From Candidatus Nitrotoga sp. AM1P (GTDB lineage Bacteria > Pseudomonadota > Gammaproteobacteria > Burkholderiales > Gallionellaceae), in contig NZ_AP019547.1 in assembly GCF_013168275.1 (NCBI RefSeq), positions 806,001 through 870,000 of the forward strand: a stretch of 64,000 nt of DNA, read 5' to 3'. The notes under the pieces were generated by a model. It was not told the DNA's origin. It searched no databases and saw only the letters and a list, made by a program, of their open reading frames with translations. Numbering within the stretch: the stretch's first letter is position 1; the number at the start of each line of letters is the position of its first letter. The position numbers were made by a program, and so were the translations under genes. This document shows, in pieces, positions 30,162 to 48,495 of this stretch.

Positions 30162-30418
30162 ATCTTCTCCATCAGGGAAAATTACTAAGCGGAGCATACC
30201 GCAACACAACAATAAATCAAAGGGAAAGACTCTTACAATATCAGATGTGTCTGATGCTTGGCCGTATGTCCAACAAGACCTAAACTTAAACACTTTATAT
30301 TCTGAATAAAGTACTTATGCATGACTATAGTGATCTACATAAACGAAGCATAACTACAAACCTTTAACGTCAAGTTAAGCGTTCTCTGAAGGAAGCCGAT
30401 ACCACACCTTGACACAAA

Positions 30419-31597: not shown

Positions 31598-31681
31598 AGC
31601 AATGTAAGTGGGTTAAAACTGAAGGGTAATACCCGCAAAAACGTATTATCTCACGTGAATAAAATAATATTGCGCAATGCT

Positions 31682-31709
31682 CTTGAAATCAAAAAAGTCG
31701 ACCCCATTT
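31682..31709 (+). promoter_or_regulatory. Sigma-32 (heat-shock) promoter of grpE
   Basis: CTTGAAA at 31682-31688, a 13-base spacer and CCCCATTT at 31702-31709: a perfect match to the RpoH consensus CTTGAAA-N(11-16)-CCCCATNT. It lies 41 bases upstream of the grpE ATG. Confidence 0.92.
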
Positions 31710-31750
31710 TTATGCTACGTATTTTTAAAGAAATCATTTTGGAGAAGCAG

Positions 31751-32287
31751 ATGGAACCCACCGAATCCTCATCCCAACAGCCTGAACAGACTACCCAAGC
31801 TGAAGATACGCTTAACCCAGAGGTTATGCCAAGCATCGAGGAGATGCTGCAACAAGCGGAGCGCAAGGGACAGGAACACTACGACGCTTGGATGTACGCC
31901 AAGGCAGAAAGCGAGAATATTCGTCGTCGCGCGCAAGAAGACGTTAGCAAAGCCAAAAAATTGGCCGTCGAGCATTTCTCCAATGAAATGCTGATGGTAA
32001 AAGATAGCTTGGAAGCAGGATTAGCTGTTGAAATCGCCACAGTAGAAAGTTTCAAGAGCGGTATGGAACTCACTCTCAAGCAACTCACTGCTGTATTCAC
32101 TAAATTCAACATCAAAGAAATCAATCCGCTCGGCGAAAAATTCGACGCCCACTGGCACCAGGCAATCAGCATGGTAGATAGTGAGCAAGAAGCCAACACG
32201 GTAGTCAGCGTCATGCAGAAAGGCTATCAACTGCACGACCGAGTGTTACGTCCTGCATTGGTGATGGTGGCCAAAGCGAAGGAATAA
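31751..32287 (+). CDS. grpE: Hsp70 nucleotide-exchange factor GrpE
   Basis: 178 residues from ATG 31751, with GGAGAAG 4 bases upstream; the longer open frame runs back through the promoter and is not real. An acidic, disordered N-terminus leads into the dimeric coiled coil ([19 protein letters not shown]) and the C-terminal beta-domain ending [14 protein letters not shown], the GrpE signature region. It exchanges ADP for ATP on DnaK. Directly under a sigma-32 promoter and followed by dnaK. Confidence 0.97.
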
Positions 32288-32367
32288 AAACCCTAATAAC
32301 CAAGCAGCAACCCGCTTCTTAAAATAAATTGCATGTTCGCGGAATTTTGCGAAAAATTATCGTAACA

Positions 32368-32394
32368 CTTGAAATACACATCTGCTGCCCACAG
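32368..32394 (+). promoter_or_regulatory. Possible second sigma-32-type promoter, upstream of dnaK
   Basis: CTTGAAA at 32368-32374 is a perfect heat-shock -35. After 12 bases GCCCACAG (32387-32394) only partly matches the CCCCATNT -10. It lies 55 bases before the dnaK ATG and may let dnaK be transcribed apart from grpE. Confidence 0.55.
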
Positions 32395-32449
32395 ATTAAT
32401 GCAACACAGGCAGCAAAGACTTTCAACATTACAACGAAAAGGAAACGTT

Positions 32450-34393
32450 ATGGGCAAGATTATTGGTATTGATTTGGGCACCACGAACTCGTGCGTTGCT
32501 GTCATGGAAAACGGCAAATCTAAGGTGATTGAGAACGCCGAGGGTACACGTACCACGCCGTCCATCATCGCTTACATGGAAGACGGCGAAGTACTGATTG
32601 GCGCGCCGGCCAAACGACAAGCAGTCACCAACCCAAAAAACACACTCTATGGGGTAAAGCGGCTGATCGGACGCCGTTTTGAAGAGCCAATGGTGCAGAA
32701 GGACATGGGCATGGTGCCGTATGGCATCGTTAAGGCCAAGAACGGTGATGCATGGGTTAAGGTTCGTGACAAAGATATTTCCATTCCGGAAATTTCCGCA
32801 CAAGTGCTCATGAAAATGAAAAAGACCGCCGAGGATTATCTGGGCGAGTCGGTCAGTGAAGCTGTCATCACAGTGCCTGCCTACTTCAACGATAGTCAAC
32901 GTCAGGCCACTAAAGACGCTGGCCGCATTGCTGGATTGGAAGTAAAGCGCATTATTAACGAGCCCACTGCGGCTGCGCTGGCATTTGGTATGGATAAACA
33001 AGAAGGCGATCGCAAAATCGCGGTCTATGACTTGGGCGGCGGTACTTTCGATATTTCCATTATCGACATCGCTGAAATTGACGGTGAACACCAGTTCGAA
33101 GTGCTGTCCACTAATGGCGACACCTTCCTTGGTGGCGAAGATTTCGACATGCGCGTCATTGAATTCCTGGTAGAGGAATTCAAGAAAGAAAGCGGCATCG
33201 ACCTGAAGAAAGATATGCTGGCTCTGCAACGCCTGAAAGACGCGGCTGAAAAAGCCAAAATCGAACTATCTTCCGCACAACAAACTGAAGTGAACCTGCC
33301 TTACATCACGGCAGATGCCAGCGGCCCAAAACATCTGGCCATCAAAATTACCCGCGCCAAGCTTGAAAGCCTGGTGGAAGAATTGGTCGCGCGCACCATT
33401 ACCCCCTGTAAGATTGCCATGAAAGACGCGGGCGTTTCCACTGCCGACATCGCCGACGTGATTCTGGTGGGCGGACAAACACGGATGCCGATGGTGCAGG
33501 AAAAGGTCAAAGAATTCTTCGGTAAGGAAGCGCGTCGCGACGTCAACCCAGATGAAGCAGTGGCAGTAGGCGCGGCCATTCAGGGTGGCGTGCTGCAAGG
33601 TGAAGTTAAAGACGTTCTGCTGCTGGATGTAACCCCACTCAGCCTGGGTATTGAAACCTTGGGCGGCGTAATGACCAAACTGATCAAGAAAAATACCACC
33701 ATCCCGACCAAGGCCTCACAAATATTCTCTACCGCCGATGACAATCAGAGTGCAGTGACCATCCACGTGTTGCAAGGTGAGCGCGAAGTTGTTGCTGGAA
33801 ATAAGAGCTTGGGGCAGTTCAACCTCTCCGACATTCCGCCCTCACCGCGAGGCATGCCGCAGATTGAAGTGACATTCGACATTGATGCCAACGGAATCCT
33901 GCATGTAGGTGCAAAAGACAAAGCGACCGGTAAAGAATCCAAGATTACCATCAAGGCCAATTCCGGTTTGTCCGAAGCTGAAATTCAAAAAATGGTGCAG
34001 GATGCAGAAACGTATGCCGACGACGACCGCAAAGCGATCGAATTGGTTACCTCGCGTAATCAGCTGGATGCATTGATTCACTCCACGCAGAAGTCTATGA
34101 AGGAATACGGTGAGCAGCTGAGTGCGGACGAAAAAGCTGCAGTAGAATCCGCTTTGAAAGAAGCTCAGGATGTCGTGAAAGGCGACGACAAAGACGTTAT
34201 AGACGCCAAAGCTGAAGCACTCTCCACCGCTGCGCAAAAACTGTCAGAAAAGATGCACGCCGCTGAAGCTAGCCAGTCCCACCAGCCTGGTGAATCTGGA
34301 TCGCAAGGCGATAGCAAGAAAGATGACAGCGATGTCGTAGATGCCGAGTTCACTGAAGTAAAAGATGACAAAGCAAAAGACGAAAAGAAGTAA
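32450..34393 (+). CDS. dnaK: Chaperone DnaK (Hsp70)
   Basis: 647 residues from ATG 32450 with AAAGGAAA upstream. It starts [20 protein letters not shown], the Hsp70 signature 1; signature 2 is [15 protein letters not shown] and signature 3 [14 protein letters not shown]. The substrate-binding domain follows, with the lid and an acidic C-terminus ending [20 protein letters not shown]. Normal length. It functions with GrpE upstream and DnaJ downstream; it lies 162 bases after grpE, with a heat-shock-like -35 between them. Confidence 0.98.
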
Positions 34394-34506
34394 ATATGAA
34401 ATGGGATGGGGGATGTCGGAAGCGCAACCGCAACTTCGAAACTCGTTAATTAGCATTTTGAATATGCAAATAAAAATTATCTAGTGACATCTCTTTTTTC
34501 CTTAAT

Positions 34507-34537
34507 ACAGCGATATCTGCTCTTTGGTTATCGCTGT
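34507..34537 (+). other. Inverted repeat in the dnaK-dnaJ spacer
   Basis: ACAGCGATA (34507-34515) and TATCGCTGT (34529-34537) form a perfect 9-bp stem with a 13-base loop, followed by TATTGG rather than a T-tract. It lies in the 229-base gap between dnaK and dnaJ. It may be an attenuating or RNA-stabilising hairpin; a full terminator is unlikely. Confidence 0.45.
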
Positions 34538-34622
34538 TATTGGTTCAATGACCTCAATATAGAGACCAATTACGTAAATCTAAAATCATTAACTCCTTAA
34601 CCCCTTTTCGCTTCATGCAAAA

Positions 34623-35753
34623 ATGAAAAAACGTGACTATTACGAAATATTAGGCGTCAACCGCGACGCGTCAGAAGATGACATAAAAAAATCTTATCGC
34701 AAGCTGGCAATGAAGCATCATCCTGACCGTAATCCGGACAACCCCAAAGCTGAAGAGCACTTCAAAGAGGCCAAAGAAGCTTACGAGGTATTATCCGATT
34801 CGCAGAAACGTGCTGGTTATGACCAATTTGGACACGCCGCTGCCGATGCCGGTATGGGGTCAGGAGGATTCAGTGGCGGTCACGCCAGTTCCCATTTCGG
34901 CGATATTTTTGGTGATATTTTTGGTGCTGGAATGAGCGGAGCAGGTTCACGCGGAAGCAACCAAATGCACCGTGGCGCCGACCTGAGCTACAATTTAGAA
35001 ATCACGTTAGAACAGGCTGCACGCGGTACCGAAACGCAAATTCGCATACCCACCATGACCAAGTGCGATACCTGTCACGGCAGCGGTGCCAAGCCAGGTA
35101 CGAGCACGACTACCTGTACTACTTGCGGCGGGCATGGGCAAGTACGCATGCAACAGGGAGGATTCTTTTCTATCCAGCAAACCTGTCCGCGCTGCCATGG
35201 CAGCGGCAAATCCATTATCTCGCCGTGTGGTTCCTGCCACGGCACAGGCCGTATCAAACAGCATAAGACACTGTCTATAAAAATTCCGGTCGGGGTTGAC
35301 AACGATGACCGCATCCGTTTGTCTGGCGAAGGAGAACTCGGCAGCAACGGAGGCCCACCCGGCGACTTGTATGTCGTCATCCGCATCACGCCGCACTCGG
35401 TATTCCAGCGCGACCACAATGACCTGCATTGCGAAATGCCGATCAGCTTTGTCGTTGCGGCGCTGGGTGGTGAAATCGAAATCCCCACGCTGGATGGTTC
35501 AGCACGCATCAAAATTCCAGCTGAATCCCAATCGGGCAAAGTCTTCCGTCTTCGCGGCAAAGGAATCAAAGGGGTACGCAGTTCAACCTTTGGCGACTTA
35601 CACTGCCACGTAATGGTAGAAACCCCGGCCAATCTCACTGATCGGCAAAAGGAATTACTACGCGAATTCGAGCAGATAAACGAAGAAGATAGCGCACGCC
35701 ATAGCCCGCGTGCGAAATCTTGGATGAACAAGGTTAAGGAATTCTTTGGATAG
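34623..35753 (+). CDS. dnaJ: Co-chaperone DnaJ (Hsp40)
   Basis: A 376-residue type-I DnaJ. J-domain [20 protein letters not shown] with the HPD motif at about residue 34, a Gly-rich region with [11 protein letters not shown], the zinc-binding CxxCxGxG repeats ([32 protein letters not shown]) between residues about 143 and 210, and the substrate-binding C-terminus. It stimulates DnaK ATPase. No clear Shine-Dalgarno is seen. It converges with uup across a long inverted repeat. Confidence 0.98.
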
Positions 35754-35788
35754 TAAATATTGATCCGGCACGAATTGAATTTGACTGC

Positions 35789-35852
35789 CGTTCGTGCTGA
35801 GCTTGTCGAAGCATAAGAAGCCATTCACATTTCGACAAGCTCAATGCGAACG
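35789..35852. terminator. Long inverted repeat between convergent dnaJ and uup
   Basis: Arms 35789-35810 and 35831-35852 (22 bp, 19 matching; core TGAGCTTGTCGAA with its complement) around a 20-base loop. It lies just after the dnaJ stop and before the uup stop, so it can end transcription from both sides. The core resembles a dispersed repeat seen in many proteobacterial genomes; that identification is from memory. Confidence 0.65.
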
Positions 35853-35935
35853 ACTTCTTGCATAAACATTTCATAATCAATAAGTTGGTGAGTTTTCCTC
35901 AGGATATTTTAAATAGGTGATATTGCCGATAAACT

Positions 35936-37837
35936 TTATCGGCTCTCCAACTCTTCCCAGCGCGCCATCAATTGCAACAACTCGTCCTCGATAATAGCGG
36001 TGCGTTCCTGTAGCTGCTTGGCGTGGGCAGGATTGTCACGGTAGAGATTGCCCGCACCCAAAGTGGCAGCAAGCTCTTCCTGCTCTTGTTCCAGGGACGC
36101 GATTCGCTGTGGAATCTGCTCTAACTCACGCGCTTCTTTGAAGCTTAACTTGGTGGCAGGTTTGGATTGAACCTCAGTCTGCAGCGATGGCTTGGCAGGT
36201 GCGGCTGCACTTACGGGCGCTCGCTGCACAGCTTGCTGCTTCTTTACGCGTACCCAATCTTCATAACCACCGACGTATTCCATCAATTTGCCATCGCCCT
36301 CAAAGGCGATGACCTGAGTCACTACATTATCGAGGAAAGCACGATCGTGGCTAACCAGAAACAATGTGCCATCGTAATCCGCGAGCAGGTCTTCCAGCAG
36401 CTCCATAGTTTCAATATCAAGATCATTGGTCGGCTCGTCCAGCACCAGCACATTAGCTGGGCGGCTGAACAGACGCGCCAGCAGCAAGCGGTTGCGCTCG
36501 CCGCCGGACAAACTTTTAACCGGTGAACGAGCACGCTCCGGTGCAAATAAAAAATCACCGAGATAGCTAATGATGTGCTTGCGTACGCCACCAATTTCAA
36601 TAAAATCTGCGCCCTGGCTAATGGTATCGGCCAGCGTAGCTTCTTCATTCAGTTGCGCACGCAATTGATCGAAATACGCCACTGCCAACTTGGTGCCCAG
36701 ATGCACCTTGCCGCTATCCGGTGCTAATTCGCCCAAGATAATTTTGAGCAACGTGCTCTTACCAGAGCCGTTGGGCCCTAACAGACCAATCTTGTCGCCA
36801 CGCTGGATACGGCAGGAAAAATCTTTAATGATTTGCCTGTCGCCGAAGGATTTACCGATGTGCGACAGTTCCGCCACCAGCTTACCAGAGCGGTCACCCG
36901 CCTCCAGACTCATTTCAACTTTACCCACACGCTCACGCCGCGCACTGCGCTCGCGCCGCAACTGCTCCAGCCGCCGTACGCGTCCTTCATTACGCACGCC
37001 TCGCGCTTTAATGCCCTGACGTATCCATACTTCTTCCTGCGCCAACACTTTATCGAACTTAGCGTTGAGCACCGTTTCATCCTGCAACATCTGCTCCTTG
37101 AAACGCAGGTAAGCCGCAAAATTACCGGGGAAACTAGCAAGATTGCCGCGATCCAGCTCAATTATGCGAGTAGTGACGTTATCCAGGAAACGCCTATCGT
37201 GGGTCACGAACAACACGCTGCCGCGAAAGTTGTTAAGCAAACCTTCCAACCATTCAATGGACGAGAAATCAAGATGGTTGGTGGGCTCATCCAGGATCAA
37301 CACATCCGGCTCAGCCACTAACGCCTGCGCCAGTGCCACACGTTTACGCACGCCGCCAGAGAGATCACCCACACGACTGTCAGCATTCAGCTCCAGACGT
37401 TGGATAGCAGTCTCGATACGCGCCTGCACCGCCCAGCCGTTTTGCGCTTCAAGCTTTGTTTGCAGAGGTTGCATCGCCTCCAACAAACTTTCGTAATCAG
37501 CATCCGGTTCGGCAAGTTGATGCGACAAATGATGATAATCAGTAATAATTTGTTGTAGCTCACCCAGCCCGCGCGCAACTTCGTCAAACACAGTCGCTTC
37601 ACCATTTAATTCTGGTTCCTGACTCACATAACAGATGCGTATACCGGGTGCACGCCATACCAAGCCATCGTCTAACATAGCCTGGCCGGCCAGCACTTTT
37701 AACATACTGGACTTACCGCCGCCGTTGCGCCCGATCATGCCGACGCGCTCACCTTCGTCCAGTTGGAAATTAACATGATCAAGCAGTGGTACATGGCCGT
37801 AAGCAAGCGCGGCCTTATCAAGAGTAATGTATGGCAT
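35936..37837 (-). CDS. uup: ABC-F family ATPase Uup
   Basis: 633 residues from ATG 37837 (MPYITLDKAALAYGHVPLLD); the longer frame adds a hydrophobic stretch not seen in the family. Two ABC cassettes: Walker A GRNGGGKSS and GPNGSGKST, signatures LSGGVRKRVALAQAL and LSGGERNRLLLARLF, Walker B VLILDEPTNHLDF and VLVLDEPTNDLDI. No membrane domains, and a C-terminal coiled coil after residue 545 (EQIPQRIASLEQEQEELAAT), which is typical of Uup and binds branched DNA or ribosomes. No good ribosome-binding site is visible. Confidence 0.93.
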   Translation of the reverse strand: MPYITLDKAALAYGHVPLLDHVNFQLDEGERVGMIGRNGGGKSSMLKVLAGQAMLDDGLVWRAPGIRICYVSQEPELNGEATVFDEVARGLGELQQIITDYHHLSHQLAEPDADYESLLEAMQPLQTKLEAQNGWAVQARIETAIQRLELNADSRVGDLSGGVRKRVALAQALVAEPDVLILDEPTNHLDFSSIEWLEGLLNNFRGSVLFVTHDRRFLDNVTTRIIELDRGNLASFPGNFAAYLRFKEQMLQDETVLNAKFDKVLAQEEVWIRQGIKARGVRNEGRVRRLEQLRRERSARRERVGKVEMSLEAGDRSGKLVAELSHIGKSFGDRQIIKDFSCRIQRGDKIGLLGPNGSGKSTLLKIILGELAPDSGKVHLGTKLAVAYFDQLRAQLNEEATLADTISQGADFIEIGGVRKHIISYLGDFLFAPERARSPVKSLSGGERNRLLLARLFSRPANVLVLDEPTNDLDIETMELLEDLLADYDGTLFLVSHDRAFLDNVVTQVIAFEGDGKLMEYVGGYEDWVRVKKQQAVQRAPVSAAAPAKPSLQTEVQSKPATKLSFKEARELEQIPQRIASLEQEQEELAATLGAGNLYRDNPAHAKQLQERTAIIEDELLQLMARWEELESR

Positions 37838-38003
37838 CAGTATTATATTTTTAATTAACAAGAAGAAATTGATGGATAAACGAAAAACGCATCGACCATA
37901 GCGCAATAGAAAAAATATTAGCGCATAACGAGACTTGGCAACCGCGAGAGCATTACGACAGAAACGAATGACGTTGCAACCAAAATATTGCTGACAGAAT
38001 TTT

Positions 38004-38549
38004 TCACCCCTTTCCAGCAGCCAATAGTTTATTCAAATCCTCAATAATTTCTTTCGAATGACGCGACGTTTCAACCTTGTCATACACCTTGCTAATTTTA
38101 CCTTGCGGGTCGATCAAAAATGTATATCGTCGCGCCAACTTGAATATCCCAAGATTTCGCAGCACGCCATAACGCGTGGTCACCTCAGCGTTTTTGTCCG
38201 CCAGTAACGGAAAGGGAAGAGAGTATTTCTTGGCAAAATCGGCATGGCTCTTACTGTCGTCCACGCTAATACCCACTACCTGCGCACCGAGTCCGGTTAA
38301 TTGATTCAGATCGTCACGAAAGTTACAAGCCTGCTCAGTGCACCCTGGCGTATCATCCTTTGGATAAAAATACAGCACTAGCCACTTACCGTGAAAATCC
38401 GCCAAGGTATAAATTTTTCCATTCTGGTCGGGTAGATTGAAATTCGGTGCGGCTTCTCCAATTTTCGGCAATTCGCCCGCACGTGCCAACTGACTTGCTA
38501 TCAGCAATGCTGATATGCTTAACATACCAAATATTATCAATATCTTAAT
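38004..38549 (-). CDS. Exported peroxiredoxin, BCP/PrxQ type, probably starting at an ATT codon
   Basis: The mature domain has the PrxQ centre DDTPGCTEQACNFRD, with peroxidatic Cys in PGCT and resolving Cys five residues on. It should reduce peroxides in the periplasm. The start is unusual. A perfect AAGGAG (38556-38561) sits 6 bases before an ATT at 38549. Starting there gives a textbook signal peptide: one Lys, then ILIIFGMLSISALLIASQ, then LARA. The only nearby ATG (38525) leaves a signal without positive charge and 30 bases from the ribosome site; a TTG (38540) is 15 bases away. The open frame extends to 38654 but the extra part is polar and unlike the family. Confidence 0.85.
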   Translation of the reverse strand: MKILIIFGMLSISALLIASQLARAGELPKIGEAAPNFNLPDQNGKIYTLADFHGKWLVLYFYPKDDTPGCTEQACNFRDDLNQLTGLGAQVVGISVDDSKSHADFAKKYSLPFPLLADKNAEVTTRYGVLRNLGIFKLARRYTFLIDPQGKISKVYDKVETSRHSKEIIEDLNKLLAAGKG

Positions 38550-38778
38550 GTTATTCTCCTTATGTTTATTTTCAGGCAAAATTCCGAAGCCGCAGCAATT
38601 ACTCATTATAGGAACGACGTTTAGCTCAACACCGTAATGATACCAGCCGAACACTATATCGCGCTTGTACTCAATTCAACAGGAGCAAAATGTTTAAATT
38701 TGCTGTAGTAATAAATAAACTGCCCAGACTTGTAGTACATAATTTATCCGAGCGAAATTGCTACAGGAGATTTTGAAA

Positions 38779-38964
38779 ATGAGCCTTGAAGAAGCTCAGG
38801 ATGGTTGGGGAGGAAGGCCATGTGACGCAGAAAGAAGCTGCACGGTTAGCCTTCGGCTCTACGAAAACCTAGCTGCCGGACTTTCCATCGACATGGTTAC
38901 GTGCCATGCCCGGTGGTACACACGTAGAGCAAAGGACAACATGCTTTTGCGCCGTCCCGTTTAA
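38779..38964 (+). CDS. Doubtful small ORF beside the integron remnant
   Basis: ATG 38779 has AGGAG nine bases upstream and gives 61 residues (MSLEEAQDGWGGRPCDAERS...), without a recognised family. A second frame across the same bases, from ATG 38800, reads MVGEEGHVTQKEAARLAFGS, meets TAG at 38870 and continues protein-like to TGA after VDTRFG at 38994. One of the two may be a decayed gene, possibly a former cassette or IS fragment. Low confidence in either. Confidence 0.25.
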   Translation: MSLEEAQDGWGGRPCDAERSCTVSLRLYENLAAGLSIDMVTCHARWYTRRAKDNMLLRRPV

Positions 38965-38980
38965 GAGCAGCCCGGTAGAT

Positions 38981-39038
38981 ACAAGGTTCGGCTGAATGAA
39001 ATGAAGCTCAACCGAGCTAACCTTACTTGTTGGGCGTC
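38981..39038 (-). other. attC-like recombination site
   Basis: On the minus strand, right after the cassette gene, comes GACGCCCAAC (39038-39029), which contains the inverse-core consensus RYYYAAC as GCCCAAC. Then AAGGT (39024-39020) pairs with ACCTT (38987-38983), and TCGGTTGA (39015-39008) pairs with TCAGCCGA (38995-38988; one G-U), with an unpaired bulge between the stems and a 12-base loop. This is the fold expected of an integron attC. The outer partner site is TTGTATC instead of GTTRRRY, so the site is degenerate or joins a non-cassette flank. Confidence 0.65.
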
Positions 39039-39813
39039 TGCGCACCCGGGACTTCAGGCTTCTTCATCACCCAAGCCGGCAGAATAGTCTGGTACCATTT
39101 TTCCGCCGATAAGTGCCGCCACCGCTCGAATCACTTGAGTCCCAAGTTGCCGAGTATTTAACTCGTTTCCCTTGCCGTTAATGAGGCTGACATTGAGGCG
39201 GGCTGCAAGCTCTCGAAGTACAGGCTTGACTGGCGAAATCGAAACTCCGTCCCGTTCCACTTCAATCGTTCCGGTCTCGAGCTCGCGTATGGTGTAGTGA
39301 TCGATAACAATCTCGTTGACTAGAGCGATATCGCTTCTCACCCTTCGCCTCTCGATGAGACGACTCAGCGCAAGAACTTGATTTCCTTCCGTTGGCCCAG
39401 TTAGTAGTGGACGTACGTCTGCAATCAGAGCATTGAGCAAAGTCTCGACTTGCATTTCCTCTGTATTCATGCGCAGGACGATCACGCGGTCGACGAACTC
39501 AAGCGATCTTGAATTGAAGGTAACATGACCAGTCAAGCCCATCATCGCCGTTGTCTTAACGGAAATTCGCTCGCCAGACTCGCTTACGACGTCGTAACCC
39601 CTTTGATTGACTTCAGTTGCCATTTGCCCATTGGTGATCAACGCGGCATACAGTTCCCCGATCCGCCCGCACAGATGACGCAACTCTGTTGGCGGTACGC
39701 CCCAGTTGAGTTCGCGTTCGAACCAGGACATCGCCTCACCGAGCGATTGAATGATCTGCATTTGTGTAAGAGCCATTGTCGAAGTCTACCCAAGTGACTA
39801 AAAGGACGCCCAA
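38982..39813 (-). mobile_element. Single integron gene cassette
   Basis: The cassette starts at the core site G/TTGGGC (39814-39808), 32 bases upstream of the gene, and ends in the attC-like site. The first bases (TTGGGCGTC) are exactly complementary to the start of the attC (GACGCCCAA), the hallmark of a circularisable gene cassette. It is divergent from the intI fragment, in the canonical integron arrangement. Confidence 0.65.
39054..39776 (-). CDS. Cassette-encoded conserved hypothetical protein (DUF6998-like)
   Basis: 240 residues, starting MALTQMQIIQSLGEAMSWFE with GELYAALITNGQMA and the strand-like segment GYDVVSESGERISVKTTAMM near residue 70. No signal peptide or membrane segment. The fold suggested by ISVKTT plus VDRVIVLRMN recalls small restriction-endonuclease-like proteins, but no catalytic set is certain. 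I associate the N-terminal pattern with a family often found in integron cassettes (DUF6998), from memory and unverified. The start lies 32 bases after a recombination core site and the stop about 15 bases before the attC-like site. Confidence 0.75.
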   Translation of the reverse strand: MALTQMQIIQSLGEAMSWFERELNWGVPPTELRHLCGRIGELYAALITNGQMATEVNQRGYDVVSESGERISVKTTAMMGLTGHVTFNSRSLEFVDRVIVLRMNTEEMQVETLLNALIADVRPLLTGPTEGNQVLALSRLIERRRVRSDIALVNEIVIDHYTIRELETGTIEVERDGVSISPVKPVLRELAARLNVSLINGKGNELNTRQLGTQVIRAVAALIGGKMVPDYSAGLGDEEA

Positions 39814-39947
39814 CGTAAAATAGACCCAATAAAACACTAAAAATTTTATCAAGTTGATTTATAAATCATGGGAATAATTACAAACCTAATTTAAAATCAA
39901 AATAATATGATTTTATTAGGATGTTAACCAGTTTTTAACGCCCCGCT
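39808..39947 (-). other. attI-like region with recombination core site
   Basis: The minus strand carries GTTGGGC at 39814-39808, fitting GTTRRRY, at the junction with the cassette. The 130 bases up to the intI start are AT-rich and include an inverted repeat TAAAATC/GATTTTA (39892-39898, 39909-39915). Position between intI and the first cassette is what defines attI. A cassette promoter could be here but no clear pair was seen. Confidence 0.55.
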
Positions 39948-40058
39948 ATGTCCACCCCAAAACCCGCTAAAATTACTCGATCAAGTGCAAGCCGTGTTGC
40001 GCATGAAGCACTATAGCATCCACACTAAGAGGGTTTATCTGGATTAGATGCATTATCG
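39948..40058 (+). pseudogene. intI: Integron integrase (IntI) 5' fragment
   Basis: ATG 39948 begins MSTPK. After a one-base shift the frame at 39964 reads PLKLLDQVQAVLRMKHYSIH and TKRVYLD, closely matching the N-terminal SAM-like domain of integron integrases (KLLDQVR..LR.KHYSIRTE..YVDWI). At 40045 a TAG replaces the expected Trp. Restoring one lost GGATT (a 5-base direct-repeat deletion) gives LDWIRCII, the expected continuation. The fragment then ends at about 40058, where a copy of the mnmC 3' end begins. No catalytic Arg or Tyr box remains. Confidence 0.75.
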
Positions 40059-40603
40059 TTCATCTGTCGCTCGCCTGCCGCACCAGCCCCGGCAATAATT
40101 CGTCCACTAACGGCATGGCCCCGGGAACCGAAGCTCTCACTGATGCACGACCATTCAGTTGCTCAACATTTAATGAATCAATATTCATCAACTTGGCTAG
40201 TACCGGGGATATTTCCACCAATTTAGATAAATTATCTAAATAATCAGATACCCTCAAATCCACCGCCTGATCGTTAAAATCATGCGTCGCTCCCAGCACG
40301 TGCAGTTCTCCGGCGGATAGAGCAAGATATCCATTGGCAGATACAATCGTCTGCAGATTTTCTGCTGTACGGTGAAGCAGGCAGAATAGTGATCTGACCA
40401 CGTACCGGCGTTAGGGGTAAGTGTGACAACGGCGCAAATGATTTCACCTCATAACCAGTAAAAACCACTACTACCTGATCGTCATAAAACCATGTCTGTT
40501 GACGCTCGACTTTTCCCTCCACCCGCCAGCCCGTATCAACTGCTATCAAGGATTCCCCGCGATAGCCGGTACGCAGCACGATGGCTGGGCTCTGCCAATG
40601 CTG
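40059..40603 (-). pseudogene. Partial duplicate of mnmC (FAD-domain fragment)
   Basis: Diverged copy of the mnmC 3' half. 40088-40603 matches 41868-42382 closely, and 40059-40087 matches the true mnmC 3' flank at 41701-41729. Between them the copy lacks 138 bases that lie between two CCCGGCA repeats in mnmC (41730-41736 and 41868-41874); one CCCGGCA remains (40088-40094). The reading frame (RGQITILPASP..., then LVDELLPGLVRQASDR) is broken by small indels near 40370 and 40590. It has no N-terminal part or start signal. Confidence 0.85.
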
Positions 40604-40637
40604 GGAATAAGCGGCACCGTAATCGTGCTCGCAATAA

Positions 40638-41447
40638 TCACACCAACACAGATGATTTTTTTTTGAAGCTGATGCTTTTTTCCATACGCTGTGCCACGAA
40701 GCAGCGAAATTCCTCCATCACCACAACCAATTCTTCTGCTGATGCAGGGATGGGATGCGACGCTTCGACAAATTCGATCTCAATAATTTCGTCATATGCC
40801 AATGCTGCTCCTAAAAAGAGCAGAGGGATGGTTGCTTTATAGGCATATTCAAAAATATTAGGGGATAAGAACAAAAAGTCATTTTGAAAATTGTCATCTG
40901 GTGCATGGTCGCAATAAACCAGAACAATTTCATCTTTGGCTAGTGCTTTGCGAACTTTGATAAGGGATTTTGCATCAGAGTTAATTAGGCGTAGGGGTTC
41001 AGTGCAACCCCAATTCCAACCATAGGCTTTTTTTCTGGAACCGCCATTAGAGATACTCGTAACTGATAATCCGTGTTTTTCTAGAAAACCAAATACGGCC
41101 ATGGTTAGACCAAAATGAGCACTACATAGTATGAATCCACCGTATTTACGATGGTATTCCAAGAGCGCCTGTTCGTTAAGGCTACGGAGGGGGATTTCAA
41201 TATAAGCGTAGCGGGTTATGGCAGAAAGAATAAATTTTAAAAGCGCTGTTTTACTGAGGAGTAATTTCTGGGGTCGACGAAAAACCCAGCGATCAACAAA
41301 GACGGCAAAGGGGAGAAGCCATTTGACCCAAAGAAGTGCCGCCCAATAGCGCTGTTGAGGAGTGCGCATCTTGGCAATAATGAACCCTGAAACTGTGATG
41401 AAGAATTCAATGAGTTGCTTGAATAGTTTCTTTATTATTTCCCGCAT
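40638..41447 (-). CDS. LpxL/HtrB-like acyltransferase-fold protein, active-site residue missing
   Basis: A 269-residue protein, with a hydrophobic N-terminal region and the pattern KYGGFILCSAHFGLTMAVFG, which resembles the H-x4-E/D block of the lipid-A acyltransferase family (usually HFGNWE). Here the acidic residue is replaced by Met (HFGLTM). Downstream, DEIVLVYCDHAPDD resembles the second conserved region. It could be a distant relative with other chemistry or an inactive homologue. It sits between the mnmC fragment and the intact mnmC, so it was probably inserted or carried by the same rearrangement. No clear ribosome-binding site. Confidence 0.55.
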   Translation of the reverse strand: MREIIKKLFKQLIEFFITVSGFIIAKMRTPQQRYWAALLWVKWLLPFAVFVDRWVFRRPQKLLLSKTALLKFILSAITRYAYIEIPLRSLNEQALLEYHRKYGGFILCSAHFGLTMAVFGFLEKHGLSVTSISNGGSRKKAYGWNWGCTEPLRLINSDAKSLIKVRKALAKDEIVLVYCDHAPDDNFQNDFLFLSPNIFEYAYKATIPLLFLGAALAYDEIIEIEFVEASHPIPASAEELVVVMEEFRCFVAQRMEKSISFKKKSSVLV

Positions 41448-41716
41448 TTGTATAAGACTTGTGTTTGGGTTAAACGAAAATGTTTGAGCATGAAGACTCG
41501 TGCTTCAATCATAAGCCTAAAGTCGTAAAGTCAAAGGAGCCCAGACACAGATTACTCTTAGTGCTTATTATCACAATCCCAATTCCCTTGGTCTTAGGGA
41601 AAGCTCTGGAAATTCGTCACGATTTTTTTACGGCCTGCCGCGTGGTTTGGCCTCCCGCTTTTGCTCCATCATGGCTTCGATCTTTATTTAGAAGCGTGAA
41701 TTCATCAATCGCTCGC

Positions 41717-43543
41717 CTACCCTACAAGACCCGGCACTGGAGTCAATGCATTAACCAATGGCAATGGTAGTGGCGACAATTGCCTACATGCCATCGCCGC
41801 AATCAGTTCACCGGATAGCCCGGCAGTGATCAGACCGCGAGTTCCATGACCCAGACTGGTATATAACCCCGGCAATAATTCGCCCACTAACGGCATGGCC
41901 CCGGGAACTGAAGCTCTCACTGATGCACGACCATTCAGTCGCTCAACATCTAATGAATCAATATTCATTAACTTGGTTAGTGCCGGAGATATTTCCGCCA
42001 GTGTGGACAAATTCTCTAAATGATCGGATGCCCGCAAATCCACTGCTTCGTCATTGAAATCATGCGTCGCTCCCAGCACGTGCAGCTCGCCGGATGATGG
42101 AGCGAGATATCCATTAGCAGATACAATCGTCCGCAGATTTTCGCTATGCGGTGTGGCAGGCAACAAGGTGATCTGCCCGCGCACTGGCGTCAGCGAAATG
42201 TGTGACAACGGCGCAAATGATTTCACCTGATAACCGGTACAAACCACCACTACTTGGGCCTCATCAAACCATGGTTGTTGGCGCTCGTCTTTCCCCACTA
42301 CCCGCCAGCCGGACTCTACCGGTGCTAAGGATTCCACATGGCAACCGGTACGCTGCACGATGGCCGGGCTCGCTGCCAATGCTGCGCACATCTGTGATGG
42401 AACCAGCCAGCCACCGGCGGGAAACCACAGGCCACCATGTGCCAACTCGATACCAGCCAGCCGGGATGCTTCAGCCGCGTCCACGCGACGCAATATATGC
42501 GATGGCCAATCAAGTGCCGCCAGTCGATCGATGCGTTTTGCTTCGCGCGCAGAAAACGCCAATTGCAGCTCTCCGCATTCCGCACGAACGATACCGTCAA
42601 TGGGAAGTTTTTCATCCAGCAAGGCAAGCGCATGTCCATAGGAGGCCACCAAAAAGCGTTGCAATGAGTCTATGCCTGCGCTTAGCCGAATATGCAATAT
42701 TCCGCGCGGATTGCCCGATGCCGCCGCAGCTAATTCTGGCGCACTTTCAATCAAGGTAACGGAGACTCCGCGCATCGCCAATGCTGAGGCAACGGCACAA
42801 CCGGCCACACCTCCGCCGATTACGATGGCTTTTGTTACCTTAGCCCGCACTGGCGGCGAACCGAGCAGGAGACCTTGCAGCATTTCGCGTTTGCGCCCAA
42901 AGCCTGGAGATTTTCTGACCTGAAATCCTGCTTGTTCCAAACCGCGCCGCACCCAGCCGGCACAAGTATAGGTAGCAAATGAGGCGCCCGGCTGAGAGGC
43001 TCTCACGATGCTCTCGAACACAGGCAGTGTCCACATTTCGGGATTACGTGCCGGTGAAAAACCATCCAGAAACCATGCATCGATGTCACCGCAGATTTCA
43101 GTTAACGCATCGACTACGTCACCTATCACTAGGGTAAGGCGTATCTTTCCACCGGCAAAACTCCACCGATTCCAGCCGGGTACGCGGCGGCGCCAACGTG
43201 CCAGGAGTTCATCCGCATACTGCCGCAATAGGGGCCACAGTGCCAAAACATCAGTCAGTTCTTTCTCATTAAGCGGATATTTTTCGACACTGAAAAAATC
43301 AAGACTGCTATTGAAGGGAGCAACCTTATCGAACAGTTGCCAAGCGCATAAAAAATTCAGCCCTGTGCCGAATCCTGTCTCACCGATGGCAAAACACCCA
43401 TCGCTTGATAAAGATGCAAAACGTTCGGCCAGCCGATTGCCTTGCAGAAAAACGTGGCGTTTTTCTTCCAGCCCGGAATCATTTGAAAAATAGACATCGC
43501 TGAAACGGCGGGAAAAAGGCTGTCCGCCCTGCCAGTTAAGCAT
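41717..43543 (-). CDS. mnmC: Bifunctional tRNA mnm5s2U biosynthesis protein MnmC
   Basis: 608 residues from ATG 43543 (MLNWQGGQPFSRRFSDVYFS); the longer frame uses a TTG. The N-terminal methyltransferase half has GETGFGTGLNFLCAW near residue 58 and DAWFLDGFSPARNPEMW near 160. The C-terminal FAD half starts VIGGGVAGCAVASALAMRG near residue 243 and ends with the oxidase fold (GHGTRGLITAGLSGELIA). It finishes mnm5s2U34 synthesis in tRNA: the FAD half removes carboxymethyl, the other half methylates. It is the parent of the partial copy at 40059-40603. Confidence 0.95.
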   Translation of the reverse strand: MLNWQGGQPFSRRFSDVYFSNDSGLEEKRHVFLQGNRLAERFASLSSDGCFAIGETGFGTGLNFLCAWQLFDKVAPFNSSLDFFSVEKYPLNEKELTDVLALWPLLRQYADELLARWRRRVPGWNRWSFAGGKIRLTLVIGDVVDALTEICGDIDAWFLDGFSPARNPEMWTLPVFESIVRASQPGASFATYTCAGWVRRGLEQAGFQVRKSPGFGRKREMLQGLLLGSPPVRAKVTKAIVIGGGVAGCAVASALAMRGVSVTLIESAPELAAAASGNPRGILHIRLSAGIDSLQRFLVASYGHALALLDEKLPIDGIVRAECGELQLAFSAREAKRIDRLAALDWPSHILRRVDAAEASRLAGIELAHGGLWFPAGGWLVPSQMCAALAASPAIVQRTGCHVESLAPVESGWRVVGKDERQQPWFDEAQVVVVCTGYQVKSFAPLSHISLTPVRGQITLLPATPHSENLRTIVSANGYLAPSSGELHVLGATHDFNDEAVDLRASDHLENLSTLAEISPALTKLMNIDSLDVERLNGRASVRASVPGAMPLVGELLPGLYTSLGHGTRGLITAGLSGELIAAMACRQLSPLPLPLVNALTPVPGLVG

Positions 43544-43788
43544 GGCGGAAGGGTTCAACAATCGCCCAAACTGATTGCAGGTAGCTTTAACAGTTTGACA
43601 AAAATAGAGGCCATCTGGATGCTTGCGGAAGTAAGAAAGTTGTCATATGCATGAAGACATGTGCCAATGTTTGTTAAGGGAGTATACGGTATGAGATGTA
43701 TGAGATAAAAGTTATCTCTGAATATTCTAATCCATTAACTAAATTTCCAGTCTTCATAAAAAATGACAACTACCTTGTTAAATAGAAT

Positions 43789-44079
43789 TTATTTCTCTGG
43801 CGGACACTCACGCAAACTCAGTAAATTAACTGGCTGCTCTCCATCGTGATCAGTTTTTAAATACTTTTGCCCAAGTGAACTGACAGCGACCACTAACCAA
43901 AATGGATGCCCCCCTACATGAGCATAAAATCGCCATTTACCTACTGCAATACCCTCAATTGCCTCCTCCACCGATATTTTCCAGCGCACTCCTTCAGCAT
44001 CCACCCCACCTATAAATTGAATACGCTCATGTGCAAGTTGACTGTTATTCTTTTTAATACAGGTAACTCGTAAATCCAT
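43789..44079 (-). CDS. DUF3892-family small protein
   Basis: 96 residues from ATG 44079 with AAGGAG upstream. MDLRVTCIKKNNSQLAHERI, GGVDAEGVRWKISVEEAIEG and a C-terminal LKTDHDGEQPVNLLSLREC match the short DUF3892 family. Function unknown; no signal peptide. It stands alone between mnmC and tyrA. Confidence 0.85.
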   Translation of the reverse strand: MDLRVTCIKKNNSQLAHERIQFIGGVDAEGVRWKISVEEAIEGIAVGKWRFYAHVGGHPFWLVVAVSSLGQKYLKTDHDGEQPVNLLSLRECPPEK

Positions 44080-44237
44080 GCTTTTCTCCTTATAGCCATC
44101 TTTTGAAACGGCATGAAAAATCACTCATACAGAAATTATTGTTCAATTCACACAACAGACTATTATTTACAGTTTACAAATTATTTCAAGTTGCCCCTCG
44201 CATTACGCTAGGGATTTTCTCAATAAATTTTGCCGAT

Positions 44238-45110
44238 TTATTGCGGAGTCCAGTTGCTGCGCACCGAACGGGCAATGCTGAATATTTCTTCCAGCTTGGT
44301 GCCATCGGCTTCGGCAAGCGCATTACGCAAAGTTTCCAGTTCACTCATATAGCGATCCATCTCTATCAACAACGCATCGCGGTTGGCCAAACTGATATCA
44401 CGCCACATTTCCGGCGAGCTTGCTGCAATGCGGGTGAAATCACGAAAACCACTAGCGGCGAAAGAAAGTAACAAATCACGGTTTTCGCGCTGCGCCAAGT
44501 CGTGTACCAATGCAAATGAAAGCAGATGCGGCAAATGACTGACAACAGCAAACACTTCATCATGCTGCTTCGGCGTTAATTCGCTCACCAACGCGCCACA
44601 CAATTCCCATGCCAATCTTATGCGCGCCACTGCATCAGCGGAATTTTCCGGCAGCGGAGTCAGTATTACTTTTTTGTTTTGATACAGATCAGCACGCGCC
44701 GCGGTAGCGCCACTTTGCTCGCCACCTGCAATAGGGTGTGCCGGTATGAAGCGGGAAATATGTGCGGCCAAATGTGTATATGCATGATCAGCAACGTCGC
44801 ACTTGGTGCTGCCGCCATCAGTAATGAGTGTCTGAGCACCCAGATGCGGCGCGATGCGAGCCATGATGTCGGCCATTTGGCCCACGGGTGTTGCCAGCAA
44901 TATCAGATCGGCATCGCCCAGCTCTGCCGCAAGATCTGAACCGCTTCGGTTGATGATCCCCAGTTGCTGTGCTTGCGCCAGCGTCTGCGCGCTGCGTCCG
45001 AAACCGACTACTTGATCCACCGCATTCATCCGCCGCAAAGCAAGCGCAAACGAACCGCCGATCAAGCCGACGCCGAAAATAACAACCTTGCGAAACAATG
45101 GTGTTGTCAC
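44238..45110 (-). CDS. tyrA: Prephenate dehydrogenase TyrA
   Basis: 290 residues from GTG 45110, with GAGGAAA upstream; an in-frame GTG at 45122 is also possible. The Rossmann start KVVIFGVGLIGGSFALALRR is followed by ADLILLATPVGQMADI, the HPIAGGEQSGATAARADLY catalytic segment with the conserved His, and VSHLPHLLSFAL. The enzyme oxidises prephenate (or arogenate) with NAD(P) toward tyrosine. It lies 36 bases after aroF in the same strand. Confidence 0.95.
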   Translation of the reverse strand: MTTPLFRKVVIFGVGLIGGSFALALRRMNAVDQVVGFGRSAQTLAQAQQLGIINRSGSDLAAELGDADLILLATPVGQMADIMARIAPHLGAQTLITDGGSTKCDVADHAYTHLAAHISRFIPAHPIAGGEQSGATAARADLYQNKKVILTPLPENSADAVARIRLAWELCGALVSELTPKQHDEVFAVVSHLPHLLSFALVHDLAQRENRDLLLSFAASGFRDFTRIAASSPEMWRDISLANRDALLIEMDRYMSELETLRNALAEADGTKLEEIFSIARSVRSNWTPQ

Positions 45111-45146
45111 GACTTTCCTCACCGCTCCCGCCAGCGTGAGCCAGAA

Positions 45147-46163
45147 TTAGAGTGTGCGTCCAATCGCGGTAGCGATGCCGCCCAACACCCCCATCAACTT
45201 CTTCAATTCTTGCGGAGTCAGCGCCTGATCGGCGTCGCACCAAGCCTCAGTCGGATTGGGATGCATCTCTACCAATAATCCATCAGCCCCGGCCGCAATC
45301 GCTGCCTGCGATAGCGCCGCGACCATCCATGCCTTGCCACCGGCGTGTGAAGGATCGACTATTATCGGCAAATGGGTTTCTTTTTTCATTACCGGAATGG
45401 CGGTCACATCAAGTACGTTGCGATAATAAGTTTCAAAAGTACGGATGCCGCGCTCGCAGAATATGATGTTATGGTTGCCGCCGGCCGCAATGTATTCTGC
45501 CGCCATCAACCACTCAGAAATGGTAGCCGACATGCCGCGTTTGAGAATGACTGGTTTGTTGATACGCCCCACTTCTTTGAGCAGGTCGAAATTCTGCATG
45601 TTGCGAGTGCCGATCTGGATTACGTCGACGTCATTTTCAAGAAAAGTGTCCAGCATACGGACATCCATTAGCTCAGTCACGATAGGCAACTTGAATTTGC
45701 TGGCTGCCTGACGGAACATATCCAATCCTTCAACACCCTTGCCCTGAAAAGTGTAAGGGCTAGTGCGAGGCTTAAATGCACCACCACGCATCAAACGGCA
45801 GCCTGCCTCACTCACGTATTGGGCCGACAAGTCCATTTGCTGCTGCGTTTCTACTGAGCACGGACCGGCAATAATCTGGATCTGCTTGCCGCCCAGCTGG
45901 ATGCCGCCGATATCAATCACAGTATTTTCGCGATGAGATTCCCGCGATACGATCTTATATTGTTTAACTATATGCATTGCCGACTCCACTCCGGGCAATG
46001 GGGTAAACATTTCTTCAGTCAGCTTGCGCTCATCACCAATAGCGCCGATCACTGTGCGTTCAATGCCTCGGGAAATATTGGCATCCAGCCCGGCGTCCTT
46101 GAGCTTCTTGACCACCACGCTTATTTGATCGTCGGTAACATCCTTGTTCATTACAATAATCAC
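45147..46163 (-). CDS. aroF: 3-deoxy-7-phosphoheptulonate (DAHP) synthase, type I beta
   Basis: 338 residues. An N-terminal ferredoxin-like regulatory domain ([20 protein letters not shown]) is fused to the KDO8P-like barrel: [41 protein letters not shown], and [13 protein letters not shown]. This is the form used by many bacteria with TyrA/PheA-linked feedback. It condenses PEP and erythrose-4-phosphate, starting the shikimate pathway. The GTG start overlaps the hisC stop (GTGA). Confidence 0.95.
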
Positions 46164-47290
46164 GCTGCTTCTCCTAACGCCTGCGCCAGCGCAGACAGAA
46201 ATTTCTCGTTTTCACTTTCCAGACCAATGCTCACACGCAAATAATCCGGCATATCATAGTTGGCAATCGGCCGCACAATCACCCCCAATTCCAGCAAGCG
46301 ACGATACATCTGGCCCGCCCCTTTTCCCCCACTCTCAGCGGGATTCGCAATGCGGCAACAGACGAAATTTCCATAAGAGGGAATAAACTCGAGACCTAAT
46401 CGCGTCAATCCTTGCGTAATCTGGTCCATGCCAGCTTGATTCAATTCGCAAGTTTGCCTTACAAAATCTTCATCCTGTAACGCCGCTACAGCAGCAGCCT
46501 GCGCTACGCTGTTGACATTAAACGGCTGCCGCACCCGGTTCAGCATATCCGCTACCAACTTGTCTGCCAATGCATAACCCACACGCAAACCGGCCAAACC
46601 ATATGCCTTGGAAAAAGTACGGGAAATGATCAAATTGGGAAATTCGCGCACCCAGCTCACACTATCGTAACGCAAATTTTGCGGGAGATATTCGTTGTAT
46701 GCCTCATCCAACACCACCAATACCTGCGGCGGCACTGCACGCAGAAATTCCTGCAATTCTGCGGCACCGAGAAAAGTGCCCGTTGGATTATTCGGATTCG
46801 CGATGAACACCATCTTCACCTTATGCTGCACCGCTACCTGCAGCATTGCAGAAAGATCGTGGCCGAACCCTTGAGTAGCTGGCACGCTGATACCCGTAGC
46901 GCCTGCCGCTTGCGTAGCCAGCGCATATACCGCGAAAGCATGATCAGCATAAACCACCTTGTCGCCCGGTGCGAGGAAAGCGCGTGCGGCCAATTCCAGT
47001 AAATCATTGGAACCATTTCCCAGCACAATGCATACAGGTTCAATCTGATATCGCTCAGACAATGCTGTCTTCAGATCAAAACCACTGCCATCGGGATAAC
47101 GCGCGATGTCGCTCATCGCCGCATGCATCGCAGCCACGGCTAGGGGACTGGCGCCGAGGGGATTCTCATTGGACGCCAGCTTGACGATGCCACTGATGCC
47201 AAGTTCGCGCTCCAATTCGGCAATCGGTTTGCCCGGCTGATAGGGCGCTATGGCACGGATATAGGGAGGGGCTAGCTCACTGTAGTTCAT
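46160..47290 (-). CDS. hisC: Histidinol-phosphate aminotransferase HisC
   Basis: 376 residues, fold-type I PLP enzyme. [19 protein letters not shown] is the N-terminal substrate segment, [11 protein letters not shown] the Asn loop, [11 protein letters not shown] the conserved Asp/Tyr pair, and [20 protein letters not shown] carries the PLP Lys. It is convergent in function with histidine synthesis, though here it sits in an aromatic-amino-acid cluster, where HisC-like enzymes can also transaminate phenylpyruvate. The stop overlaps aroF; pheA lies 118 bases upstream. Confidence 0.93.
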
Positions 47291-47408
47291 TTCATACCTT
47301 GATTAATTTCGTTTTTGTCATTACCGATAAAAGCAGGCACTCAGTCATTAATAGAACTAAATTTCGTCTTCACGGAAATAACGATATTTTTAAATTGCAC
47401 AAATGGTT

Positions 47409-48476
47409 TTATAGGGTAGCCGGGTAGGAACCTAGCGTTTTCACAAACGCGGCAACTTGCTTTAATTCAACCAGTGCGGCCGCCACTTTGGGTTCATGCT
47501 GATGCCCTTCAATATCCATATAAAACACATATTCCCACACGCCGGAACGGGCCGGCCGAGATTCCAGCTTGGTCATACTGACGCCATTTTTGGCCAACGG
47601 CGCCAATAAATCGTAGACTGCGCCTGGACGATTCGGTGCAGACATGACCAACGAGGTTTTATCCTTACCGGATAGCGCCACCTCCTGATTTCCGATGACC
47701 AAAAAGCGCGTGGTATTGCGCGCGTCGTCCTCAATATTCTCAGCCAATAATGGGATACCATAATTTTTGGCCGCCTTTGCACTTGCGATCGCCGCACTAT
47801 CTGCCTGCTGTTCCAAAGCCAGAAGAATCGCCTTGGTATTGCTGCCAACTGGCACGCGCTCAACATTAGGCAAATTCGTATTCAGCCAGACTTGACACTG
47901 CCCCAAAGACTGCGAATGCGAAAACACACGCTTGATGGCAGAAAGGTCAGTCGCCCGCGACATCAAGCATTGATGCACCGGCAACATTACTTCACCACAC
48001 ACCCTGAGCGGGCTTTGCAACAACAAATCCAGCGTGCGCCCAATAGCACCCTCTGTGGAGTTTTCCACCGGCACCACTCCATAATGGGCCTTGCCGCTTT
48101 CTACAGTTTGAAAGACTTCATCTATCGAAACACACGGCTTACTCAGCACTGCGTGACCAAAACGTTTCTCGACTGCTTCCTGGCTGAAAGTTCCACTGGG
48201 CCCTAAATATGCAACACAAAGCTGCGTTTCCAATGCACGGCAGTGCGACATAATCTCGGTAAATAATTGCGTGATACTCTGATTCGGCAAAGGACCGGAA
48301 TTATTGCTAACCATACGCTGCAATATCTGCGCCTCGCGCTCTGGTCGCAGCACCGTGTTTTCACTTTTAAGATGGCCGATTTGGCTTGCCAGCGCCGCGC
48401 GCTGGTTGAGCAACTTGAGCAAATCTTCGTCAATACTGTCGATTCGATCGCGGTATTTCTTGAGTTCCTCACTCAT
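47409..48476 (-). CDS. pheA: Chorismate mutase / prephenate dehydratase PheA (P-protein)
   Basis: 355 residues. Chorismate mutase domain at the N-terminus (YRDRIDSIDEDLLKLLNQR), then the dehydratase domain (VAYLGPSGTFSQEAVEKRFG, VVPVENSTEGAIGRTLDLL with the Ser/Glu region, and DDARNTTRFLVIG carrying the TRF motif), then a C-terminal ACT domain (KTSLVMSAPNRPGAVYDLLA, and SRPARSGVWEYVFYMDIEGH with the ESRP-type Phe-binding site). It converts chorismate to phenylpyruvate under Phe feedback. 19 bases after serA. Confidence 0.96.
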   Translation of the reverse strand: MSEELKKYRDRIDSIDEDLLKLLNQRAALASQIGHLKSENTVLRPEREAQILQRMVSNNSGPLPNQSITQLFTEIMSHCRALETQLCVAYLGPSGTFSQEAVEKRFGHAVLSKPCVSIDEVFQTVESGKAHYGVVPVENSTEGAIGRTLDLLLQSPLRVCGEVMLPVHQCLMSRATDLSAIKRVFSHSQSLGQCQVWLNTNLPNVERVPVGSNTKAILLALEQQADSAAIASAKAAKNYGIPLLAENIEDDARNTTRFLVIGNQEVALSGKDKTSLVMSAPNRPGAVYDLLAPLAKNGVSMTKLESRPARSGVWEYVFYMDIEGHQHEPKVAAALVELKQVAAFVKTLGSYPATL

Positions 48477-48495
48477 TGCTCATACATCCTATTAC

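Follow-up and report, generated by a model that had tools for sequence, protein, structure and literature searches.

Chromosomal integrons in known systems and in Candidatus Nitrotoga

An integron is a platform that captures genes (cassettes) by means of a recombinase; the terms R'', L'', Pc, attC and REP, and the placing of the crossover point in the GTT of the core, follow general usage here. The window, by which we mean the whole stretch of DNA that was analyzed, comprises 64,000 nucleotides of the Candidatus Nitrotoga sp. AM1P chromosome (positions 806,001-870,000 of NZ_AP019547.1, assembly GCF_013168275.1). In Xanthomonas, according to PMC12444791, an ancestral integron occupies a fixed platform downstream of the housekeeping gene ilvD, with strain-specific cassettes and an intI that is often truncated or absent. 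The same paper describes CALINs, defined by their attC sites, as mobilizable in trans, and Nemergut et al. (2008, PMC2426708) report nearly one-third of intI genes to be pseudogenes. Among solved structures, IntI4 (PDB 2a3v) comes closest to an intact Candidatus Nitrotoga integrase, the intact protein of L017 aligning over residues 8-320 (E 8.4e-91).

The locus described below is very probably, with little doubt in our view, what is left of a sedentary chromosomal integron in Candidatus Nitrotoga, and it is the same kind of decayed integron as in Xanthomonas, in another genus. Compared with the Xanthomonas platform as described in PMC12444791, the window copy lies away from the genus's mpl site and has an intI stub of 32 codons and one degenerate attC. 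It resembles a CALIN, on the same source, in being cassette material without a working integrase; unlike a CALIN, for which at least two attC sites without an integrase are counted, it has an attI and an intI stub and no intact attC, its one attC being degenerate. With the pseudogenes surveyed in PMC2426708 it shares an inactivated intI, here reduced to the first codons (roughly the initial tenth of the gene), and set against IntI4 it is without everything past about codon 32. An environmental nitrite-oxidizing genus thus joins the bacteria with chromosomal integrons, and its genomes offer a genome-by-genome view of an integron platform falling apart.

We compared 19 Candidatus Nitrotoga genomes, labeled G000 to G018 (G000 being the window's own), several of the relatives being draft genomes; loci carry an L and a number (for example, L068 on contig G014:C15, L065 in G009, and L009 on G000:C1 at 2.323 Mb). 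The names attI_B (type B attI) and attC_B were coined in this analysis. Integrase fragments were scored with an IntI N-terminal profile built from 11 intact IntI of the genus, and attC_B sites with a covariance model (R1) built from 23 of them.

The intI stub, attI and cassette of the window

The features of the locus are collected in Table 1. The + frame 39928-40044 reads PVFNAPLCPPQNPLKLLDQVQAVLRMKHYSIHTKRVYLD and runs into a TAG stop (40045-40047); inside it are 27 residues typical of integron integrases, the peptide (39964-40044) that the first-pass annotation had read as an integron integrase N-terminus. Against the IntI profile, this frame is the top of 2380 six-frame pieces of the window (35.3 bits, E 1e-9; runner-up 7.5), the maximum over 20 dinucleotide shuffles of the whole window being 11.9 bits. 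The 39-residue piece matches a single NCBIfam family, the integron integrase NF011946 (E 0.0026; TIGR02249 is not listed for so short a piece), and in Pfam it reaches PF13495 below threshold (E 0.059), with no family at 0.001. Pairwise alignment scores are 60-85 against the 11 intact IntI and 23-29, which is within the shuffled range, against three further tyrosine recombinases encoded in this genome. The profile search proposed with the first reading therefore returns an integron integrase, with the other tyrosine recombinases at shuffled level, and a match to unrelated tyrosine recombinases only, which had been named as evidence against that reading, did not occur.

Table 1. Features of the locus, in window coordinates
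Feature	Position	Strand	Evidence
AhpC/TSA redoxin gene, left flank	38004-38654	-	Pfam PF00578, 1.1e-42
Degenerate attC	38979-39038	-	R'' GCCCAAC (39035-39029) and following GTAAGGTTAG retained, then REP-like hairpin; R' gone
Gene cassette, from GGGCGTCC... after GTT to R''	39029-39811	-	Core/inverse-core complementarity
Cassette ORF, 240 aa, DUF6998 protein without assigned function	39054-39776	-	Pfam PF22522, 1.6e-13
attI core GTT/GGGC	39808-39814	-	Sequence; aligned with 16 other attI copies
attI_B, between intI start and cassette	39812-39947	-	L068 homology; further copies in genus
intI 5' stub, about 32 codons	39948-40044	+	Profile, shuffles, NCBIfam, alignment; ATG out of frame
Breakpoint and mnmC 3' flank (AGATGC...GTCGCTCGCCTGCC)	40046-40086		Flank also beside mnmC in L065, L082 and L083
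Duplicated mnmC 3' end, right flank of remnant	40087-40603	-	84% to 41867-42384

The stub belongs to the intI family as a 5' fragment and not as a functional gene. The integron-specific extra domain and the catalytic residues lie in a part of the gene that is missing from the window, and L068 is frameshifted there; because the stub is too short to include either, its class is judged from its N-terminus and its context alone. In the window the ATG at 39948 does not share the frame of the conserved LLDQV, and neither does the ATG of L068 (hand-counted offsets, 22 and 25 nt); no in-frame ATG, GTG or TTG was seen upstream of LLDQV in the window stub or in L068. Because the start is out of frame in both, their common ancestor was probably already dead, judging from these two copies.

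The core GTTGGGC is present on the opposite strand, as first claimed; it fits GTTRRRY and belongs to an attI that adjoins the intI stub. Window positions 39812-40049 are 85% identical over 243 bp to the attI and intI of L068, where the attI continues into a longer intI piece, itself frameshifted (TIGR02249 positions 1-63, 5.9e-15), and the segment 39808-39900 matches further attI copies across the genus. The proposed intI-attI-cassette geometry has the right order and orientation, intI and cassette diverging across the attI, and L068 has the same arrangement of attI and intI 5' end; the cassette gene does begin 32 bases past the core, counted from GTTGGGC to the ATG of its ORF. A search for Pc over 38600-40200 gave four promoter-like matches, compared with 2.1 (sd 1.4) in shuffles.

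Where the cassette ORF ends, GACGCCCAAC (- strand, 39038-39029) is the complement of the core plus three bases, matching at 10 of 10 positions, and the 10-mer of core and inverse core has one copy per strand in the window, at exactly these two sites. The GTAAGGTTAG that follows R'' is common to the window cassette and the attC_B family of the genus. Model R1 scores the cassette's attC at 10.8 bits (E 2.1 over 64 kb, by itself not significant) and its fold barely beats shuffles (z -0.8 and -1.1); by these values the attC is not intact, with one half preserved and R' lost. A custom attC finder reported no site in window positions 30000-50000. The attC-like structure expected in the first-pass annotation is accordingly there in part: R'' and the core complement are borne out, and a complete folded attC, by covariance model or fold, is not. 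REP-like hairpins of the type GGTTGGGCTGAATGAAATGAAGCCCAACC are dispersed (window 38985-39015, L009 5843-5975, L068 11324-11353), and in the window and L068 the hairpin stands just where the outer half of attC is gone.

The nearest named relative of the DUF6998 protein, 83% identical, is from Rhodoferax sp. OV413. Homologs occur in 45 plasmid records, annotated among the 15 listed as hypothetical protein or not at all; PADLOC gave no match for three cassette proteins, this one included, and the cassette DNA has no match among 41 other loci compared. Rfam gave no match in the window, and ARAGORN found no tRNA within it.

The homology to intI stops at 40045-40049, where the 3' flank of mnmC starts (a gene named from the domains of 41717-43561); on the left side, homology with relatives ends near 38930. 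Five of the 19 genomes, the window's own included, have the redoxin gene near mnmC. At this place G009 has the same attI_B with another cassette and no intI seen, and the interval holds other sequence in G001, G012 and G017; an empty site was not seen in any of these four, and the state before the break was seen in no relative compared. The duplication of the mnmC 3' end is also found in G001, there without intI, and between the two mnmC copies of the window is a 269-aa ORF (40638-41447) with no Pfam match. The redoxin-mnmC interval appears as an insertion hot spot, with different genes in L064 (4500-5600), L066 (5000-5710) and L067 (3800-4720), their kinds guessed by eye.

With its integrase broken off at the mnmC 3' flank and its attC without R', the unit looks dead. 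In the course of events we propose, an integron integrase would once have inserted cassettes at the attI, a deletion or rearrangement would have fused the first 32 or so codons of intI to the mnmC 3' flank, and the outer half of the cassette attC would have been lost or replaced by the REP-like hairpin; a single DUF6998 cassette, directed away from intI, is what remains. We infer that this cassette, now frozen, has lived on as an ordinary gene, and that the integrase was dead before the break. A TIGR02249 search of the whole AM1P genome, as had been suggested for an intact intI, gave 11 matches, none over the cut-off, and a working integrase was found neither in cis nor elsewhere in this genome. 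Together with the stub, the attI homology and the geometry, this supports the central claim of the first-pass annotation, a decayed chromosomal integron that has lost its integrase.

attI_B without an integrase across the genus

Integrase genes over the TIGR02249 cut-off are present in 12 of the 19 genomes (16 matches), and the attI and intI DNA of L068 has a match at E <= 0.001 in 81 of 158 genomes of the family. We collected 15 attI_B copies and aligned them together with two variants. The IntI profile was run over the integrase side of 18 copies (15 attI_B and three variants), as far as 1.5 kb or the contig end if that came first; a significant match stood beside the attI in three only, namely the window, L068 and the variant L100. 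Among the 15 attI_B copies, L068 is the only one besides the window that is joined to a recognizable intI, also broken. In one further copy, G007:C41:30367-30534, DNA homology reaches the first bases of intI. No attI_B was seen in the 300 bases upstream of 13 of the 16 intI over the cut-off. This attI type recurs without a working integrase in the genus, and we read this as mostly the ordinary decay of sedentary chromosomal integrons that is described in Xanthomonas. In a literature search of incomplete coverage, nothing linking Nitrotoga with integrons or mobile elements was related by title. Diverged attI_B-like sequences, with a core that is no longer GTTRRRY, were also noted at L069 (8346), L071 (11210) and L076 (7573), upstream of apparently the same gene in three genomes.

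The region downstream of mpl, inspected in 17 of the 19 genomes (all except G011 and G018), could be read over 700 bases in 16 of them, the contig of G014 ending there. It holds attI_B in eight (G001, G005, G006, G007, G009, G012, G013 and G016), an apparent intI remnant in two (G015 and G017) and neither within 700 bases in six. Between mpl and the core (119-277 bp) the IntI profile finds no match in any of the eight attI_B genomes (best E 0.31). By BLAST of the 400 bases that come next after the core, these genomes form seven unrelated groups, only G005 and G007 being alike (77%). G001 and G012 have a common integrase-less junction (120 and 119 bp) with different cassettes, and G005, G007 and G016 have another (170, 170 and 172 bp), the cassette of G016 being unlike that of G005 and G007. 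At the right end, before msrB, a well-formed attC is kept in G001 and G006, and related sequence is seen by eye in G013 and in the window's own genome. A tree of the 16 genomes from two short genes, with weak inner support, intermixes these states, and G017, with its intI remnant at mpl, falls among the attI_B genomes. We read mpl-msrB as a chromosomal integron whose integrase was lost more than once.

The occurrence of different cassettes at a common junction that lacks an integrase (G001 and G012; G005 and G007 versus G016) allows that orphan attI_B sites, after losing their own integrase, kept exchanging cassettes in trans through an integrase encoded elsewhere, which refines the integron-remnant explanation and is not opposed to it. 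Such exchange would fit the seven different first cassettes at eight mpl sites with no IntI between, the intact IntI found elsewhere in G005, G006, G009, G012 and G016, and an attI_B array of the AM1P genome (L075), the third ORF of which shares 91% identity with the first cassette in the intact G014 integron (L085). Set against this, and against recent use, the mpl core fits GTTRRRY strictly in only two of the eight genomes (G001 and G012) and most of these sites look decayed; an integrase over the cut-off is missing from G001 and G007, and that of G013 has a stop. The exchange of cassettes may predate the deletions, and the deletions may have recurred, G017 retaining an intI remnant; the genomes concerned are drafts (the mpl locus of G012 is a 3.7-kb contig), and transposition or ordinary recombination could also alter the neighbors of an attI. 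A strict search with the custom attC finder gave only two sites in 49185 bases downstream of mpl, compared with one on the opposite strand of those bases and one in 147555 shuffled bases. We consider exchange in trans rather doubtful, the more so because six of the eight mpl cores are no longer strictly GTTRRRY. The wider proposal, that integrases encoded at other places in the genome, or carried by visiting elements, loaded dispersed orphan attI of Nitrotoga in trans, we put forward just as tentatively. If true, it would mean that attI, besides attC clusters, can outlive the integrase as a working landing pad, and the attI of the window would be one orphan site caught after integrase loss; the mpl site, at which species with the same integrase-less junction differ in their cassettes, provides a testable case for the filling of an integrase-less attI in trans.

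attC_B sites and further integron traces in the AM1P genome

The pattern of the first half of attC_B has 69 matches in 15 of the 19 genomes, compared with three for the reversed pattern. This dispersal, the likeness by eye of the sequence past R' at many loci, the palindromic form of some copies and the finding that, of 51 copies with sufficient upstream DNA, 43 (the six palindromic ones included) show no upstream core that matches R'' over 8 bases or more would be expected if attI_B and attC_B were the ends of a small non-autonomous mobile gene-carrying repeat, integron-like in look only. We regard this as improbable: in L068 and the window, attI_B runs on into intI; R'' differs between attC_B copies in the manner of attC sites; the single-stranded DNA fold of one copy reaches z -5.0 and has unpaired extra bases; and an upstream core does match R'' over at least 8 bases in 8 of 51 copies, versus 2.4% with R'' swapped. 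Perfect or near-perfect palindromes of the attC_B half were noted at L151 (2440-2520), L129 (1450-1525) and L118 (1450-1525); these versions may be terminators or REP elements that either arose from attC_B or gave rise to it.

The best TIGR02249 match in the AM1P genome is a second intI remnant, at L009, with one TGA and one TAG. L009 7030-8200 (G000:C1:2323029-2324199) is a second decayed integron, of a lineage other than the window's: it has a 5'-truncated intI with stops, the remains of an attI and, on the attI side, an outward ORF that resembles a cassette, and its intI is 93-94% identical to the intact intI of L017 and L023. The window and L009 pieces end near the same codon in opposite orientation, as would the halves of one intI split by a 1.48-Mb inversion, a reading we rejected as exceedingly improbable because the L009 piece is of another lineage with an attI remnant of its own (and its cassette-like ORF besides). 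Equally remote is the reading that the stub peptide matches by chance or comes from some other type of tyrosine recombinase, for which its shortness and a Pfam match not significant alone would speak, against the profile and shuffle results, the NF011946 match, the alignment scores and the homology to L068.

A strict attC-type pattern gave one irrelevant match in the AM1P genome, compared with five in the control. The attC_B covariance model gave eight matches at seven places over the whole genome (E <= 0.01; 150 of 1108 candidates scored), one match being a palindromic copy detected on both strands. The array at L075 (7097-8783; G000:C1:2285096-2286782) comprises attI_B and three ORFs, with no intI match. 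Two attC_B sites (G000:C1:249427-249489 in L146 and 272549-272611 in L147) lie 23 kb apart, each near a tyrosine recombinase gene (at a distance of approximately 740 and 1140 bases, respectively); the two genes are identical over the 342 bases compared.
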